36,048 bases of DNA, taken from contig JAQIWT010000103.1 in assembly GCA_034696485.1 (NCBI GenBank), positions 1 to 36,048 of the forward strand, given 5' to 3'. This DNA comes from Isohypsibius dastychi (Eukaryota > Tardigrada > Eutardigrada > Parachela > Isohypsibiidae). Positions 21,529 to 36,048 of this stretch are shown in pieces. The translations under genes and the position numbers were made by a program. Position 1 is the first letter of the stretch. Each line of letters begins with the position of its first letter. The notes beneath the pieces are model-generated. The model was given only the letters and a program-made list of their open reading frames with translations. It made no database searches and was not told where the DNA came from.

Positions 21529-22444
21529 TGTTCGTGCTTCTATTTGGATGGGATGAGATCACGTCTGAGGGCCACCTTTTGACTTTTCCATCGTCCAAAT
21601 AATTATGAATTGTCGACATTGCCGAATATCTTATGCAAATGAAACTATGTAACAAACGGAAGCCGCAACATGTGACCAGCTAATATCATAGTAACCATGA
21701 CAGAATTACTACTGTATCTGGGCCACAATACCGCAGTTGAGCTTCTCAATCTGAATACAATAGAAGGTCTGACGTGTCGTGCCTGACGCAAAGTACATAA
21801 GTATTGCATTATTTGATGATCCACCGATAACATTCCCACAATTACTAGAATATGTCATTTCTGCGCAAAGTCCGATATCTCCGCCACTCAGCGTCTTAGA
21901 GAGGCCTATCCGTTTGATGTACTATTGTGGATATCTCGCCAAGCATATGATTGATTATATTGGGGTGTTGAAATGTTGATTCATCACCCGCCTCCCCTAT
22001 ATCTCTGTGACCTAGGAGATATATCCTCCCGAAATATCTGTGACATATTGATTATATCATAGGATACTGTATACTGTTTATTATATTTAGAACGCCTGCA
22101 AATAATTTCCCAATTTGATGGGTTGAAAATATTGTAATTCGTGTGATTCTCGTATCGCTTGAACCTTCGAAGGTATGTTGGAGTGGACCATGGAGGTCGA
22201 AAAAGTCAAGTGAAATTCTCGATATTGTCGACTCTCAGCTAAAACACGGCTTCTGAAGGTCAAAAATCGACAGATTTCTACATTATACATTGTATAAGTC
22301 GTAGATCTCGCGCGCAACATTGCCTGTCATCAGATTATTACTGAAGAGACTTGGGAGGGGGCAGAAGTGAATTCTTATAGGGTGCCTTGTGCTAGCTTAC
22401 AAAACAATCTATTCCTAGGAGAACCGCCTCATCCACCAATCAAA
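21529..22444. other. AT-rich spacer between SMP copy 1 and the orphan helical gene
   Basis: 916 bases without a supported gene. Open frames on either strand are short and featureless. Several GATATAT/ATATC-type short runs occur near 22010-22070. No terminal inverted repeats or target duplications were recognised. Confidence 0.45.
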
Positions 22445-23572
22445 ATGTCGAAAAAGAAGAGAGTGAGAGAATCCGAGGAAAACTTGGACGAGACCATCCT
22501 GCATGAAGACAGCGATGACGAATGGTTGTTCATTTTCAGTTCTGAGGATGTTAAGATATTGCAAGAAACAAGTTTGCTCAATAAAGGTATAAAATTGGAC
22601 AAACTAACTTCAACCCGCGTTCGAGAGGTGTTGAAGAATCTGGGAAAGGAGTTGAAAGGGGTGGAGGAGGTCAAGGAGGAATTAAACAAGTATCGTGATT
22701 TGCTGAAACATTGGATACGCGTGGAGAAGAAATTATCAGAGTTGGAATCGATCTGGGCAGAATCCGAACAACATGCGAAGCGAAGGGTTGTAGTTGAAGC
22801 CTGTGGGTTGCTCGAGAACAACAAGGACCGTCTCATGGGCCTTTCTCGTCTAATTCGTTTTCAACGGGAGGTTGCGTTTATTCATGTAATGCCCAGTCAC
22901 AAGTTGGAATTGATCAACGTTAAAATGGAGAGTACATCCGAGGAGCACAAGCAAGTATTGAATACAGTTGTCGACATTTTAAAGACATCATTTCATGAAC
23001 AAACATGGAAATTTCAATCTCTTCAAGTGGACCTACTGAAGACACGATGGTTAGGACGTAAAGAACAACTGGAGATGGAGGATAGACTTGAGGCACGATG
23101 GAGCGAGACTGAAAAACAACTTGACACAGTAATGAAGGATCGCGACGAGATGAAGGAGAAGCTCTTGTACCGTCAGATCGTCAACATTCTTCAAGAGCGA
23201 ATTGCATTATCCGCTGGCGAAAAAAAAGTCGAGTCCTTCCGAGAGTATTATTATGCATGTGATAGGTTGGTCAATGGATCGAAATCAGCTAACGGTTGGA
23301 CAATGAGTGAGGACCAGGCACGACGATTCTTGATAACCTTGAGGCAAATCTTTCCGTCTAAAACGCTGGACACTTTTAAGGACTTGTTAAACGTGTTCGA
23401 AGAATTAGGGAAGATTGCATGGGAAGCTCGAGCGGATGCCCGTCTCATTGCACATAACGAGAAGTTGAGTGTAAAAGAAATACGAGACGACCTGGTTGAT
23501 GCTCTAGTACGAACAAGCAATGACAAGAGATTTGAAAATAAATTCTTATTGGAAGAAAGTACCAAGATATAA
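22445..23572 (+). CDS. Orphan helix-rich protein between the SMP copies
   Basis: 375 aa from the ATG at 22445 (the frame is open upstream to a GTG at 22367). I do not recognise a family. The N-terminus is basic (SKKKRVRE, a possible nuclear signal), then acidic (ESEENLDETILHEDSDDEW). The rest is Lys/Glu-rich and predicted mostly helical, with coiled-coil-like stretches around 65-110 (LGKELKGVEEVKEELNKYRDL) and 225-265 (LEMEDRLEARWSETEKQL). No Walker motif, zinc finger or transposase-like DDE pattern is visible. Codon bias towards A/T third positions seems stronger than in neighbouring housekeeping genes, a visual impression only. It could be a lineage-specific structural or nuclear protein. 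Confidence 0.6.
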   Translation: MSKKKRVRESEENLDETILHEDSDDEWLFIFSSEDVKILQETSLLNKGIKLDKLTSTRVREVLKNLGKELKGVEEVKEELNKYRDLLKHWIRVEKKLSELESIWAESEQHAKRRVVVEACGLLENNKDRLMGLSRLIRFQREVAFIHVMPSHKLELINVKMESTSEEHKQVLNTVVDILKTSFHEQTWKFQSLQVDLLKTRWLGRKEQLEMEDRLEARWSETEKQLDTVMKDRDEMKEKLLYRQIVNILQERIALSAGEKKVESFREYYYACDRLVNGSKSANGWTMSEDQARRFLITLRQIFPSKTLDTFKDLLNVFEELGKIAWEARADARLIAHNEKLSVKEIRDDLVDALVRTSNDKRFENKFLLEESTKI

Positions 23573-24439: not shown

Positions 24440-25477
24440 ATTAATCTCTAATATAAGGCACGCATCAATGTGACATATTGAATGTCAGTGATTGACAGGT
24501 ATGTAATGCGATATGTCTTGTTTCGTTTCAGTTGAGTACAGAGAAAACCTATAATTTCGTCTCTCTATAAGTACCTGAAGTCCATAAATAATCTCCTTAG
24601 AATCAAAATAGTGCTTCACTCCTGTACCCCAAGAAGGGTTCCGTATCGAATCTGAGCACACGACTGAACACGAAAAGCATTCGTTTTCAGGTGATAGATG
24701 TGTGAGGAAGCGTCAAATGGTTATTTTTAAAACGGCGATCTCAAAGCTGGGGGTAGTTTGCTTCCCCCGTACAGAATGGAGTCAAAACGATTTTGTATAT
24801 GTCGAGTGAATGCATTCCCCACTGAGCAAAAAAGCATATACAAGTATATATTGTGGTGCGAAAATGGCCCTAATTATACATACAATATTATATATCAAAG
24901 AAACAAGTTCGAACCTCAATGTAAATACATATATAGATTTCTGCAGTACCTTTGTATTGTTAAAAACGTATATATGCGATTTAATAGAATTTTTTATAAT
25001 GCGTTATATATAATAATATTTTGGATCAATTTTGGGACCTTTTGTAAAACATTACATTGGCATTGGCACCGGGAGAGCATAATAAGACCGTACGCCAATA
25101 CGAAGCGACACTTGGATTTGGGTTTGATGATGAGTGAGAACGCGCAACAAACAAACAAATTTCAAACCAACTTTTCACAACAATTCCTCATTATTATTAT
25201 TATTATTAGAAAGGAAGCCTCTCCTTCTGTATACTACATGAGCGGGAACGAGTCTCTTTGTCCTTCTTCTTCTTTGCTCTCATTATTAAGTCTGAAACTG
25301 AATGACGCGCGCAAGAAGTCGCGCGAGAGTTTGTCTCCGAGTCTGACACGCAGAGACTCGACGCACATGGTGAAACTGTTTAGAGACCATTCTCCCAAAG
25401 CAAGGATACGCGACACAGAGGAAGGGTTTGGGTGCGCGACTAGAAATCAAAACTACACAGAGTCGCCCACAGAGAGA
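24440..25477. other. AT-rich spacer upstream of RagC-like gene
   Basis: 1.04 kb, strongly AT-rich from about 24830 to 25030 with repeated TATATA runs, then a (TTA) microsatellite. The plus-strand frame of the RagC first exon is open back to 24758, but its translation is low-complexity until near 25470, so I treat it as leader. It presumably contains the promoter and 5' UTR. Confidence 0.45.
25191..25208. repeat. (TTA)6 microsatellite
   Basis: Six perfect TTA units, with an ACAA-type repeat about 35 bases upstream. It is simple-sequence DNA in the leader or promoter of the RagC-like gene. Confidence 0.9.
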
Positions 25478-26472
25478 ATGCCGATTCCCACGAGGGTTGT
25501 TCATGTCGTGGGACCTTCAAACGCGGGAAAGAGCTGGCTCAGGTCCGTTGTTTTTGAGAGGAGGTCACCGCTGGAGCTTATCTTAGAAAAGCGAGAAACC
25601 AAGTTGGTGGTGACCAAGCTACGCAGTACCGACTTTATCCACGTGGACGTCTGGGGTGAGTTGTGAGGCCGCGCAAATAAATTGCATTTAAGGTATCTAA
25701 CCACGACACAGACTGGCCAGAAGATTCAGGCGAATCTCAATTGAAGGAGAAGGCAGACGCAATTGTGTACGTGATTGATGCGCAAGAAGACTTCCGCAAG
25801 AGCGCAATACAAGAAATCTGCGCTACTTTCCAGAAGGCAAAGTCGTTAAATGAGAACGTAACTTTGCAGGTCTTCGTCAACAAAGTCGACGGTGATGCTT
25901 TCTCCTCAGAAGAGTTGCGCGTTGAAGTCCAGCAGGCGTTTGAGTCGCAGATTAGCCACGAAATGGCGAAAGATGAGGTTTCAATACACCTAACCAGCGC
26001 TTACAATCCTAGCGCGTACGAGGCGTGGTCGCTTGTACTTCTGAAACTTATCCCCAACCAGAGCGTGATTGTCGAGTTATTAGACGTCCTCGTTGACACT
26101 TGCAAGATGGAGAAAGCCTTCTTGTTTGATTCCAAGACGAGGCTGTATCTCGCTACCGACCATAATCCTGTTGATCACCAGACATTAAACCTTTGCGTTG
26201 ACTCGATTGACCTTGCCATAGGGTTTGAGTCCGTTTATGGACCAAGTGGTGATTGCTTTGAAAAAGAAAAAGGCACCATTAGTTCAAAGGTGCGGCTTAG
26301 CAACAATATTGTGCTTTTCACACAGCAGGTAGGGAAAAATCTTGCCCTTGTTTGCGTCTCAAGAAAGGAATCATGGTCCGAGCCCTGGCTTTTGGAGCGA
26401 AATCTCAACCTCTTTCGAGATGCCCTCGCTGAGGTCAAGAGTTACCGTGACCTTCTTGAAAATCCTATGTGA
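25478..26472 (+). CDS. RagC/Gtr2-type small GTPase (TORC1 nutrient signalling), two exons
   Basis: Spliced CDS: 25478-25655 and 25712-26472, 312 aa. Rag heterodimers (RagA/Gtr1 with RagC/Gtr2) recruit TORC1 to lysosomal or vacuolar membranes when amino acids are present. The P-loop GPSNAGKS is at 12-19. The junction reads DVWDWPED, aligning with the RagC IWDFPGQ switch II. IVYVIDAQEDF, the base-specificity loop NKVDG, LTSAYNPSAYEAWSLVLLKLIP and the roadblock domain segment MEKAFLFDSKTRLYLATDHNPVD are strongly RagC/D-like. Switch II lacks the PGQ residues and is about eight residues shorter than in RagC. The chosen ATG directly precedes the first strand. The frame is open further upstream, so a longer N-terminus cannot be excluded. 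It is convergent with importin-5. Confidence 0.88.
25656..25711 (+). other. Intron of RagC-like gene (56 nt)
   Basis: Begins GTGAGT and ends GACACAG, with TCTAACC about 15 bases before the acceptor as a branch-like element. Removal joins the DVW strand to DWPED and opens the rest of the GTPase; without splicing the frame ends two codons later. Confidence 0.88.
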
Positions 26473-32659: not shown

Positions 32660-33907
32660 CTACATAGTTTGTCCATTGTAAAGTGCAGACAATCGACTTG
32701 TCGCCTTCGCATCCAATTTCGAAAGCTTTTCCTGTAAAGAATTGGTGTCGCCATTAGCTAACTTTCGAGCGGGGACGTCAAGCACATATTGATCGAGAGA
32801 AAAGTGCTCTCGAAATTCGCAGTCCTCCGGGATTGTTTTCCCGATTAGATCGATCCCCTGAAGCTTTGCGGTTGCCGCGCACCAGGCCTTGGCGGCAACA
32901 TCCATCTGCCTCGCTGGGCCTCCCAATAGTAGCGTAGGAAGTCCAAGTGCGCTAACAATATCAATAATTTGCAAGTAGCCCTTTAGACTCATGTTAAGAT
33001 CATCGTCCTCAGTGCCGGCTAGAACTGATGGCGAACACACACATATCACCACTTGCGGATTGAATGCCGCCTTAATTTTCATAAGCTGCGAGCCAAAAAA
33101 CTTAACGAAGATCTCGTCGGTAAAGGCGCCGGGATCGAGTGGAAAGTTAAGGTTGGTATTTACCCCGGCTCCGTAACCAGCATCGTCTTCGTGTCCAGTA
33201 GTCGACTTCGAACTGTGAAACGAAACAGTGAAAACATCCCGACTCGTATAAAACGCCTCCTCGACTCCCACCGCATGATGCAGATCGAAAGATATATGTA
33301 GTGCTTGTCGGTATACCAGATGAAGTGCCAAAGTGGCGAGAACAGAGTCGTTCACGAAACAACCTCCTACGGCACATGCCTTCCTTGAGCGTGCATGACC
33401 TCCATACCAATTTACTGCGATTCGCCTTCGCCCCTCGACCAACTCCTGGGCGCCGGCCAGGGACCCTGTAGCGATCAGCCTCAGATACGCATACATTCCA
33501 GGAAACACTGCATTCTCCTCGTCTGACGGTGTGCCTAGCTGGAAGACGTTCAACTTCTCCTTAACCAGTTCGTCCTCAGATTTTGCCCGTTTTGCCTGCC
33601 GGTCGTCATCATACGCCCAAAGCTCGGAAGTCACTTGGAGCATCCCCAAGTAGTTGTCTGCATGGAATTGTCCTAGATCAGTTCGCGAGGCTAGAATTTT
33701 CGGCGAATATTCCACTTTGATATCAAAAGCCTTGCACAGGGCATTGCACAATTTTGCTCTAAACGGTTTGTAGCTCGTCGAAGTGCATTGGTACAAGGCG
33801 ATCTCGGACAAGTGGAAGGAGAAAACACCGTCTTGGTGAGGTGGGGTCGTTGATGTCGGCTGCTGGGCAATAACAACGCCGGTGTCTTGGGGATGCATGG
33901 TAATCAT
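32660..33907 (-). CDS. Class I histone-deacetylase-like protein lacking catalytic residues (pseudo-HDAC)
   Basis: 415 aa, ATG start (a second Met at residue 4). Homology to class I HDACs covers the whole arginase-like fold: YSPKILASRTDLGQFHADNYLGML (68-91), FPGMYAYLRLIATGSLAGAQ, IAVNWYGG (163-170), CFVNDSVLATL, FDLHHAVGVEEAFYTSRDVFTVSFH (207-231), NMSLKGYLQIID and PTLLLGG (324-330). Catalytic features are altered. The His-His dyad of GGLHHAKK is GGHARSRK (169-176). The first potassium-site Asp is S206. Zinc ligands D208 and H210 remain, but the third (Asp of the GSDSL loop) is gone in CVCSPSVLAG (289-298), and the transition-state Tyr of GGGGY is replaced in GGPARQM. No deacetylase activity is expected. 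It may bind acetyl-lysine peptides or act as a scaffold in a corepressor complex. Confidence 0.85.
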   Translation of the reverse strand: MITMHPQDTGVVIAQQPTSTTPPHQDGVFSFHLSEIALYQCTSTSYKPFRAKLCNALCKAFDIKVEYSPKILASRTDLGQFHADNYLGMLQVTSELWAYDDDRQAKRAKSEDELVKEKLNVFQLGTPSDEENAVFPGMYAYLRLIATGSLAGAQELVEGRRRIAVNWYGGHARSRKACAVGGCFVNDSVLATLALHLVYRQALHISFDLHHAVGVEEAFYTSRDVFTVSFHSSKSTTGHEDDAGYGAGVNTNLNFPLDPGAFTDEIFVKFFGSQLMKIKAAFNPQVVICVCSPSVLAGTEDDDLNMSLKGYLQIIDIVSALGLPTLLLGGPARQMDVAAKAWCAATAKLQGIDLIGKTIPEDCEFREHFSLDQYVLDVPARKLANGDTNSLQEKLSKLDAKATSRLSALYNGQTM

Positions 33908-34390: not shown

Positions 34391-36048
34391 ATGACAACAA
34401 ACTTCTGCCTGTATCATCTCACACTGCAGCCGCCGACTGCGGTGACCTCCGCTGTTGTGGGAAGCTTTTCCGCGGCCGATAGACATGAGTTCGTTGTTGC
34501 CAGGGGAAATTTCCTCGAGGTTTTGCGCAGAGACGCGGCGACATCGCTTTTGCGGACTGTACATAGGGAAGCGTGCTTTGGTTCAATAAGGGCCTTATCG
34601 TCTGTAAGAATAACCGGACAGAGCAGAGATCTCTTGGTTGTAACCAGCGACTCAGGTAGATTATCCGTGCTTAAGTTCGGCGCCAATGGCTTTGAGAAGT
34701 TATACTGCGACACATATGGTAAAACCGGAATCAGACGAGCGGTTCCTGGTGAGTACATGGCCACAGATCCTGCCGGACGCGCTGTGATGATAGCGGCGAT
34801 AGAGAAGGACAAATTTGTATTTGCAATCAACCGAGACTCTGATGACCAGTTGTTTGTATCGAGTCCCCTGGAGGCCCACAAATACGCGTCCATAACTTTT
34901 GCTCTGGTCGGACTTGACGTCGGATACGACAATCCCATGTTTGCTGCAATTGAGACAGTATATGATGACGAAGAGGAGGGTAAAAAGCTGATCGTTTTCT
35001 ACGAAGTAGACCTTGGGCTGAACCATGTGGTGCGCAAATGGTCGAAACCTGTGAGCGACTCTGCAAACTTCCTCATTGCTGTACCCAATGCGGGCGTCGT
35101 GGTGTGTTCCTCTGAAGGCCTTGAATACGTTAAACCTAACGAACCCACGTTGAAGATTGCCATTCCTAAGCGATCGTGGGATGATCCGGCGAGAGATGCC
35201 ATTGTGATTGCGTCCACTTTCTTTAAAAAGGATGATATTTTCTTCGCCATCTTGCAAACTGAGCGCGGCGACTTGTTCAAGTTATCTTTAGATTCTTCGG
35301 CAGGGAAGGTTGGTGGATTGGTTCTTAAATACTTTGACTCCGTTGCAGCAGCAAATGCAATGTGCTTATCAAAGGACGGCTTCTTGTTCGTTGGAAGCGA
35401 GTTTGGCAATCATGAATTATACCAGGTCGTTGCCGTTGGGGATCTCGACGGCGACAAGAGCATAGAGATCAAATCGAATTCTGATAAGCTTCCAACTTCT
35501 CCGGCAACATTCGAGCCGCGCAATGAGGTTCTCAACCTGTCCATTTTCGATATCAGACCTTCGCTCTCTCCAATTGTTGCCATGCGCGTGGCAGACCTCG
35601 CAAGGGATTCGGGTGTCAATCAAGTCTACGCTTTGTGCGGCCGAGCAGAGAAATCGACGCTAAGGACGCTGAGGCAAGGTTTAGGAGTCATGGAAGCTGG
35701 AAATATTAGGTTTGCGTCAAACAAAAACGAGATAAATCGAGGAGTTTGGACTGTTCGCCATGCCATAACGAAAGAGGAACGATACATCCTCATTGCTCAA
35801 AAGGATTCTACGAAGATCTTCAGCGTCCGGACGGAGCCGGGTCAAACTGAATCAGACGCAAGTCGAGATGTAATCGCCGAGGATACGACAACGAACAACA
35901 TATTTGTGCGGGACCAGCCCACAATCAGCGCCGGGGCTTGGGGAAAGGGATCTGAAATGATTCAGGTGACAACTTCGGGATGGCGAAGGATTAACTACGA
36001 GACAAAGGCGGTCGTCTCTCATTACACCGCCCCCTCCCCGAGGAGAGT
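34391..36048 (+). CDS. SF3B3: Splicing factor 3B subunit 3 (SF3B3/RSE1), 5' part
   Basis: Open from the ATG at 34391 to the window edge, with no stop; 552 codons visible of an expected ~1,200. SF3B3 is a beta-propeller scaffold of the U2 snRNP SF3b complex, which binds the intron branch region. The N-terminus (FCLYHLTLQPPTAVTSAVVGSFS, EFVVARGNFLEVLRRD) matches the family. So do DLLVVTSDSGRLSVLKF, GEYMATDPAGRAVMIAAIEKDKFVF, LVGLDVGYDNPMFAAIE, FYEVDLGLNHVVRKWS, FLFVGSEFGNHELYQV, YALCGRAEKSTLRTLRQGL and GVWTVRHAIT. The visible part covers the first propeller and part of the second, with no frameshift and no intron. The minus-strand open frames here are shadows. Its presence fits a genome that still splices a few short introns. 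Confidence 0.95.
   Translation, partial: MTTNFCLYHLTLQPPTAVTSAVVGSFSAADRHEFVVARGNFLEVLRRDAATSLLRTVHREACFGSIRALSSVRITGQSRDLLVVTSDSGRLSVLKFGANGFEKLYCDTYGKTGIRRAVPGEYMATDPAGRAVMIAAIEKDKFVFAINRDSDDQLFVSSPLEAHKYASITFALVGLDVGYDNPMFAAIETVYDDEEEGKKLIVFYEVDLGLNHVVRKWSKPVSDSANFLIAVPNAGVVVCSSEGLEYVKPNEPTLKIAIPKRSWDDPARDAIVIASTFFKKDDIFFAILQTERGDLFKLSLDSSAGKVGGLVLKYFDSVAAANAMCLSKDGFLFVGSEFGNHELYQVVAVGDLDGDKSIEIKSNSDKLPTSPATFEPRNEVLNLSIFDIRPSLSPIVAMRVADLARDSGVNQVYALCGRAEKSTLRTLRQGLGVMEAGNIRFASNKNEINRGVWTVRHAITKEERYILIAQKDSTKIFSVRTEPGQTESDASRDVIAEDTTTNNIFVRDQPTISAGAWGKGSEMIQVTTSGWRRINYETKAVVSHYTAPSPRR

Follow-up and report, generated by a model that had tools for sequence, protein, structure and literature searches.

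Introduction

The non-enzymatic roles of class I histone deacetylases (HDACs) are difficult to disentangle from catalysis. Where a lineage keeps both an active class I HDAC and a naturally dead class I-like one, simple removal of the latter gene would allow the structural role to be tested. Dead HDAC domains as such are already known: the available text of PMC5454378 describes the C-terminal pseudo-deacetylase domain of HDAC10 as an HDAC fold without the conserved zinc ligands and catalytic residues and with no known catalytic function. Among class I complexes, SIN3L of S. pombe is described as holding two Clr6 copies, one of which is blocked by Rxt2 and is possibly a structural scaffold only (PMC10115800, in part), and Rpd3L is described as likewise asymmetric, with a distal Rpd3 copy that can be activated (PMC13183676, in part). 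Inactive HDAC2 still enters its complexes in the mouse, lowers their activity and behaves as a dominant negative, according to the available portion of PMC4719423. Here we describe a class I-like pseudo-HDAC gene found in a 36,048-nucleotide stretch of DNA (the window), together with its relatives and the other HDAC genes of the same genome.

Results and Discussion

A dismantled class I-like HDAC gene

The gene is an uninterrupted reading frame that needs no intron (Table 1), and its product is a single-domain protein without a second, active deacetylase domain fused to it. PF00850 matches residues 52-347 with an E value of 3.1e-35, which identifies an HDAC domain. Among the best 60 of 133 distinct sequences, the solved structures nearest to the protein by sequence are those of clr6, RPD3 and HDAC1/2, followed by HDAC8. 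An AlphaFold2 model (pLDDT 89.4, pTM 0.89) superposes on class I HDACs, which are its best structural matches. The first-pass annotation of the window had described a class I relative with its fold kept; the domain match, the confident model and the class I proteins at the top of both the sequence and structure matches agree with that description, and the HDAC fold appears from the model to be retained.

Residues are given here in HDAC1 numbering, the reference being identical to 4bkx_B over residues 1-392. We take D264, D176 and H178 to be zinc ligands, H140 and H141 the general base, D174 a potassium-site residue, F150 and L271 tunnel residues, and R306 and R270 inositol-phosphate residues. 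In enzymes the roles of F150, Y303, D99 and L271 are to line the tunnel, to close it or to hold the substrate. The window protein carries replacements at six of the nine catalytic or metal positions (H140 by A172, H141 by R173, D174 by S206, D181 by V213, D264 by S294 and Y303 by R333), while D176 (D208), H178 (H210) and H179 are kept. Further replacements are F150 by G182, D99 by E131, L271 by D301, R270 by E300 and R306 by D336. Neither the zinc ligands of a class I enzyme as a full set (D176, H178 and D264 together) nor its general-base histidine pair with Tyr303 is present.

Both general-base histidines, one zinc ligand (the third, D264), a potassium-site Asp (D174) and the catalytic Tyr had already been read as replaced, and alignment to HDAC1 upholds every one of these entries; the list was incomplete, with D181, F150, D99, L271, R270 and R306 missing. 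That the window holds a dismantled HDAC gene is confirmed. From the known mechanism, a site that lacks D264, Tyr303 and both histidines is expected to be unable to hydrolyse acetyl-lysine, and the window protein is predicted to be catalytically inactive.

Table 1. Coordinates of the pseudo-HDAC gene in the window and of its altered or clade-specific segments (residue numbers are those of the window protein).
Feature	Position	Strand	Remarks
Class I-like pseudo-HDAC gene, 415-aa ORF	32660..33907	-	ATG 33907, TAG 32660, no internal stop
Clade motif TDLGQFHADNY, residues 76-86	33650..33682	-	D77, G79, Q80 invariant in 16/16 clade members; at the HDAC1 E63 surface
GGHARSRK for GGLHHAKK, residues 169-176	33380..33403	-	Both general-base histidines gone
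Gly182 for tunnel Phe150	33362..33364	-	Gly in 16/16 clade members
SFDLHHAV for DIDIHHGD, residues 206-213	33269..33292	-	Potassium-site D174, D181 gone; zinc ligands D176, H178 retained
CSPS for HDAC1 CGSD, residues 291-294	33026..33037	-	Zinc ligand D264 is Ser
GGPARQ for GGGGYT, residues 329-334	32906..32923	-	Catalytic Tyr303 is Arg

The adjoining gene on the opposite strand (34391-36046, +) is open at the window end, encodes RSE1/DDB1/CPSF1 beta-propeller domains (E 4e-82) and runs away from the pseudo-HDAC gene. Elsewhere in the window we noted a Rag/Gtr1-type GTPase (24758-26472, +; E 3e-29 on 25741-26469), seemingly spread across two ORFs and perhaps split by an intron, and a 401-aa ORF (22367-23572, +) with only a sub-threshold match to MCU, the mitochondrial calcium uniporter (E 9e-4).

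Relatives sharing the same losses

Protein searches, which scored word-sharing candidates only, gathered at least 126 proteins including that of the window. At least four of the nine positions are replaced in 26 of these 126, one of which (P0041) is a fragment; owing to the restriction of the searches to word-sharing candidates this count is no frequency. The window protein belongs to a clade of 16 rows (P0001-P0009, P0011, P0020, P0028 and P0050-P0053), supported at 97/99 in a 64-row tree with the catalytic segments removed and at 99/97 in a 47-row tree holding 11 of the 16 members. Additional removal of the shared motif region described below leaves these 16 rows as one clade in the 64-row tree, at 89/86 and below the starred level. 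The 64-row trees comprise 25 dead rows, 33 chosen canonical rows, the genome's own class I HDAC and five outgroup rows, with P0041 and the rest of the 126 omitted; from the 47-row tree P0009, P0011, P0020, P0028 and P0051, which are long or awkward, and nine other dead rows were omitted. A smaller comparison that included the genome's class I HDAC used 43 of 45 proteins, the fragments P0037 and P0041 being dropped. Warnings attach to the 64-row trees for the long rows P0009, P0044 and P0125, for the joined long branches of the outgroup and for odd composition in ten rows, and the window row has a terminal branch of 1.04 in the tree without catalytic segments.

The nearest relative, P0002, is 50% identical to the window protein across 94% of its length. 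Other members include P0050, the "Histone deacetylase" of the labyrinthulomycete stramenopile Hondaea fermentalgiana, and three transcriptome-labelled sequences (P0008, P0052 and P0053), of which P0052 bears the code MMETSP1348. Such cases are a warning that database entries named "histone deacetylase", that of Hondaea for example, can be non-enzymes. P0020 (BASA81_008305), filed under Batrachochytrium salamandrivorans, sits on a very long branch within the clade, a placement that may reflect contamination, transfer or a long-branch artefact.

None of the 16 members has H140, D174, D264 or Y303 (two rows are gapped at D264). D99 and R306 are likewise absent from all 16, F150 is Gly throughout, and L271 is found in P0051 only, with two rows gapped. 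H178 is kept in the window protein alone, D176 in nine members and H141 in seven; H179, S197 and R34 are retained in all 16 and C151 in 14. R270 is Arg in 11 of the 16 and Glu in the window protein.

The clade also carries a motif of its own. All 16 members have DxGQxH, which is absent from the other 110 proteins gathered, and 15 of them have the longer TDxGQxH, the exception being P0009. The motif combined with the absence of H140, D174, D264 and Y303 fits the window protein as it does all 16 rows, the clade being drawn from the same sequences. Six changes relative to HDAC1 are fixed in the whole clade (E63D, T65G, K66Q, F109Y, Q111R and F150G), and the first three make the motif. The E63 region of HDAC1 is assigned to the ELM2-N contact in the available text of PMC12448893.

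Conservation was compared over HDAC1 positions 8-377 (370 positions) between the 16 clade rows and 33 canonical rows, which were picked for intact motifs, so that their conservation at these motifs is by choice. The same residue is conserved in both groups (at least 85%) at 46 positions. At another 50 the canonical rows are conserved (at least 90%) but the clade is not (its commonest residue lies below 60%), and a further 15 are conserved in the clade (at least 85%) and less so, or as another residue, in the canonical rows. Many of the 50 canonical-only positions appear to belong to the active site, tunnel or rim.

Origin and the other HDAC genes of the genome

The genome assembly (30.4 Mb, 1648 contigs) has PF00850 matches on five contigs, that of the window included. 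A search for a separate catalytic class I HDAC had been advised in the first-pass annotation, and such a gene is present on contig C69: it is complete, has the canonical residues, and its gene model contains three GT-AG introns. The genes on C517 and C185 appear class II-like and that on C41 class IV-like, with motifs judged by eye. The intact class I HDAC (C69:1-4500) groups with rows some of which are named Hos2 or HDAC3, at 98/94 in the 64-row tree and at 85/93, not starred, in the 47-row tree. The assembly is fragmented; an Rpd3/HDAC1-type enzyme was not seen in it, and no complete canonical class I HDAC other than the C69 gene was seen. A SIN3 gene with a Sin3 co-repressor domain lies on C131 and an ELM2 gene on C1256.

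With the window protein as query against 126 targets, made up of the intact HDAC and 125 proteins, the top eleven matches all belong to the clade and the intact HDAC ranks 85th. In pairwise phmmer comparisons from the other side, ten of the 15 other clade members score higher against the spliced intact class I HDAC of the genome than against the window protein, among them the Hondaea protein (241 against 193 bits) and, nearly tied, P0009 (174 against 172 bits); P0002, P0003, P0004, P0020 and P0028 are nearer to the window protein. A slow active enzyme beside a fast dead one would give such scores, so the kinship of the window and Hondaea proteins rests on the trees and the motif and not on best hits. 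The window ORF is the top genomic match of the Hondaea protein (E 1e-55), but the intact gene is split by introns and outscores it once spliced, so this best match is no evidence of orthology.

Placement of the clade inside an Rpd3-like or a Hos2-like group was rejected in neither case (AU p 0.289 and 0.411, respectively, in the 47-row tree), and the class II and IV proteins of the genome are absent from the trees. A single origin of all 25 dead rows has a support of only 47/32 in the best 64-row tree, so separate losses are possible; the nine other dead rows need two label changes in the 64-row tree without the motif. The gene is unlikely to have arisen recently by retrocopying of the class I HDAC gene of this genome, since identity to that protein is 31% and 37% in two matched pieces and the window protein has other dead proteins as its nearest relatives. 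A pattern search for viral relatives matched 46 stretches, none of which encodes a relative by tblastn.

Two further lineages of dead HDACs were seen. P0023, P0031, P0033 and P0034 (100/100) have Gly at D264 and have lost H140 and D174, and they keep the tunnel residues F150, F205, L271 and Y303; this lineage is a better candidate for an acetyl-lysine reader than the window gene, judging by these residues. The other lineage consists of P0017, P0048, P0049, P0035 and P0036 (100/100), with D264 changed to Ser or Gly and F150 to Gly; P0036 retains H140, H141 and H178.

Retention and possible function

A decaying gene or sequencing artefact could account for the long end branch of the window row (1.04), but we find this barely credible. 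The reading frame is intact, the same positions are lost in 15 other sequences, and codon-position GC (0.567, 0.409 and 0.524) falls within the span of values of seven neighbouring genes. A neutral simulation, which starts from the window sequence and applies substitutions only, ignoring insertions and deletions, left 1 of 400 copies stop-free at 0.15-0.2 changes per site per branch and 2 of 200 at 0.1; at 0.15 and 0.2 the copies have a mean pair identity of 0.54 and 0.45 and gained 5.5 and 7.0 stops on average, respectively. This simulation speaks against decay, and selection probably maintains the gene. With the ORF open over its whole length and the same positions missing in 15 relatives, a sequencing error or a splice variant is unlikely. 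Since relatives elsewhere, including a thraustochytrid, are also without the chemical centre, the gene appears to be kept for a non-enzymatic protein rather than broken, and the earlier preference for a retained pseudoenzyme over a decaying gene holds up on the intact ORF, the shared losses and the simulation.

We consider it probable that this retained, dead class I HDAC relative works by protein contact and serves a chromatin complex as a structural or regulatory subunit. The fold would have been kept while the zinc site, the proton-transfer histidines, the Tyr and the substrate tunnel were dismantled, and the DxGQ surface specific to the clade would serve to contact a partner, with the genome's active class I HDAC perhaps acting beside it. 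A nuclear site, membership in a complex and the existence of a partner are presumed here. The SIN3 and ELM2 genes of the genome favour this reading, and SIN3L, Rpd3L and inactive HDAC2 offer precedents for it; the loss of R306 in all 16 members and the Glu at R270 in the window protein speak against carrying those precedents over directly. K31, R270 and R306, which we take as the list of inositol-phosphate or positive-pocket residues, are not kept as a set, the window protein having K47, E300 and D336. At the HDAC1 docking residues Y48, E63, K126, L161, Y166, Y333 and Y336 (listed in the available part of PMC12448893) it has K64, D77, E158, L193, V198, F365 and H368, a weak comparison because several of these positions vary in active enzymes too. 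Y48, for example, is Tyr in 16 of the 33 canonical rows, and the intact HDAC of the genome differs at Y48, K126 and Y336. With R306 lost and a new invariant motif in the E63 region, the partner may be new or may bind there.

Other roles for the same protein can be weighed against these residues. It could be a negative regulator that shares the partners of the active class I HDAC, by competition or by pairing, and lowers its activity, as the active-looking enzyme in the same genome and the dominant-negative HDAC2 of mouse complexes (PMC4719423, in part) would allow; the loss of R306 throughout the clade and the changes at several docking positions, though these are variable among active enzymes, make this role rather unlikely in our view. 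The first-pass annotation had suggested two possible roles, a complex scaffold and an acetyl-lysine reader. In a reader the dead pocket would hold an acetylated or otherwise acylated tail uncut. The retained fold and the conservation of H179, S197, R34 and mostly C151 are in keeping with such a reader, but it is less likely with the tunnel residues gone (F150 is Gly in every member, D99 and Y303 occur in none, and L271 only in P0051), and the idea is weakened to a doubtful one. Still less probable, and in our opinion very improbable, is a neofunctionalized enzyme performing other chemistry in the same barrel: the window protein has two zinc ligands (D208 and H210) and H179 is invariant in the clade, but H178 is found in just one member and D176 in nine, and we recognized no new invariant set of metal ligands in the 15 clade-only positions.

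Comparison with known systems

Among the open papers listed by our literature searches we found no report of a free-standing family of dead class I-like HDACs in these protists, and other papers could hold one. The words "inactive" and "active site" are not used in the available text of an oomycete HDAC survey (PMC5112689). Trypanosome DAC2 and DAC4 were considered as a precedent for dead HDACs and set aside, as the accessible portions of the literature on them do not call them dead.

A likeness from outside the family is the prozyme of Trypanosoma brucei, a dead paralogue in a functional complex with its active counterpart according to the available text of PMC5201418; the enzyme there, AdoMet decarboxylase, is unrelated, and any such pairing of the window protein would be hypothetical. 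Within the family, the class I HDACs (Rpd3/HDAC1/2, Hos2/HDAC3 and HDAC8) share with the window protein the whole fold, the 46 commonly conserved positions of 370 and the best sequence and structure matches. It differs from them in having no general base, D264, Tyr303, tunnel residues or R306. The class IIb pseudo-domain of HDAC10 resembles it as an HDAC fold lacking a catalytic centre, but that domain is C-terminal, lies beside an active domain and is without the active-site helices and loops, as described in part of PMC5454378, whereas the window protein is free-standing and has a nearly full-length class I fold.

Also comparable are Clr6' in SIN3L of S. pombe and the distal Rpd3 in Rpd3L, each a class I copy whose enzyme site is not open within its complex (PMC10115800 and PMC13183676, in part). 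The window protein and its clade could represent a dead class I HDAC subunit that is both old and dedicated, present at least in the organism of the window and in a labyrinthulomycete stramenopile, amounting to a hard-wired version of the blocked copy with the DxGQ surface in place of the inositol-phosphate dock; we regard this as a speculative reading that is more apt to be wrong than right. According to the same partial sources, Clr6' and the distal Rpd3 are ordinary enzymes, blocked by Rxt2 and unlockable in Rpd3L, whereas in the window protein the centre itself is gone.
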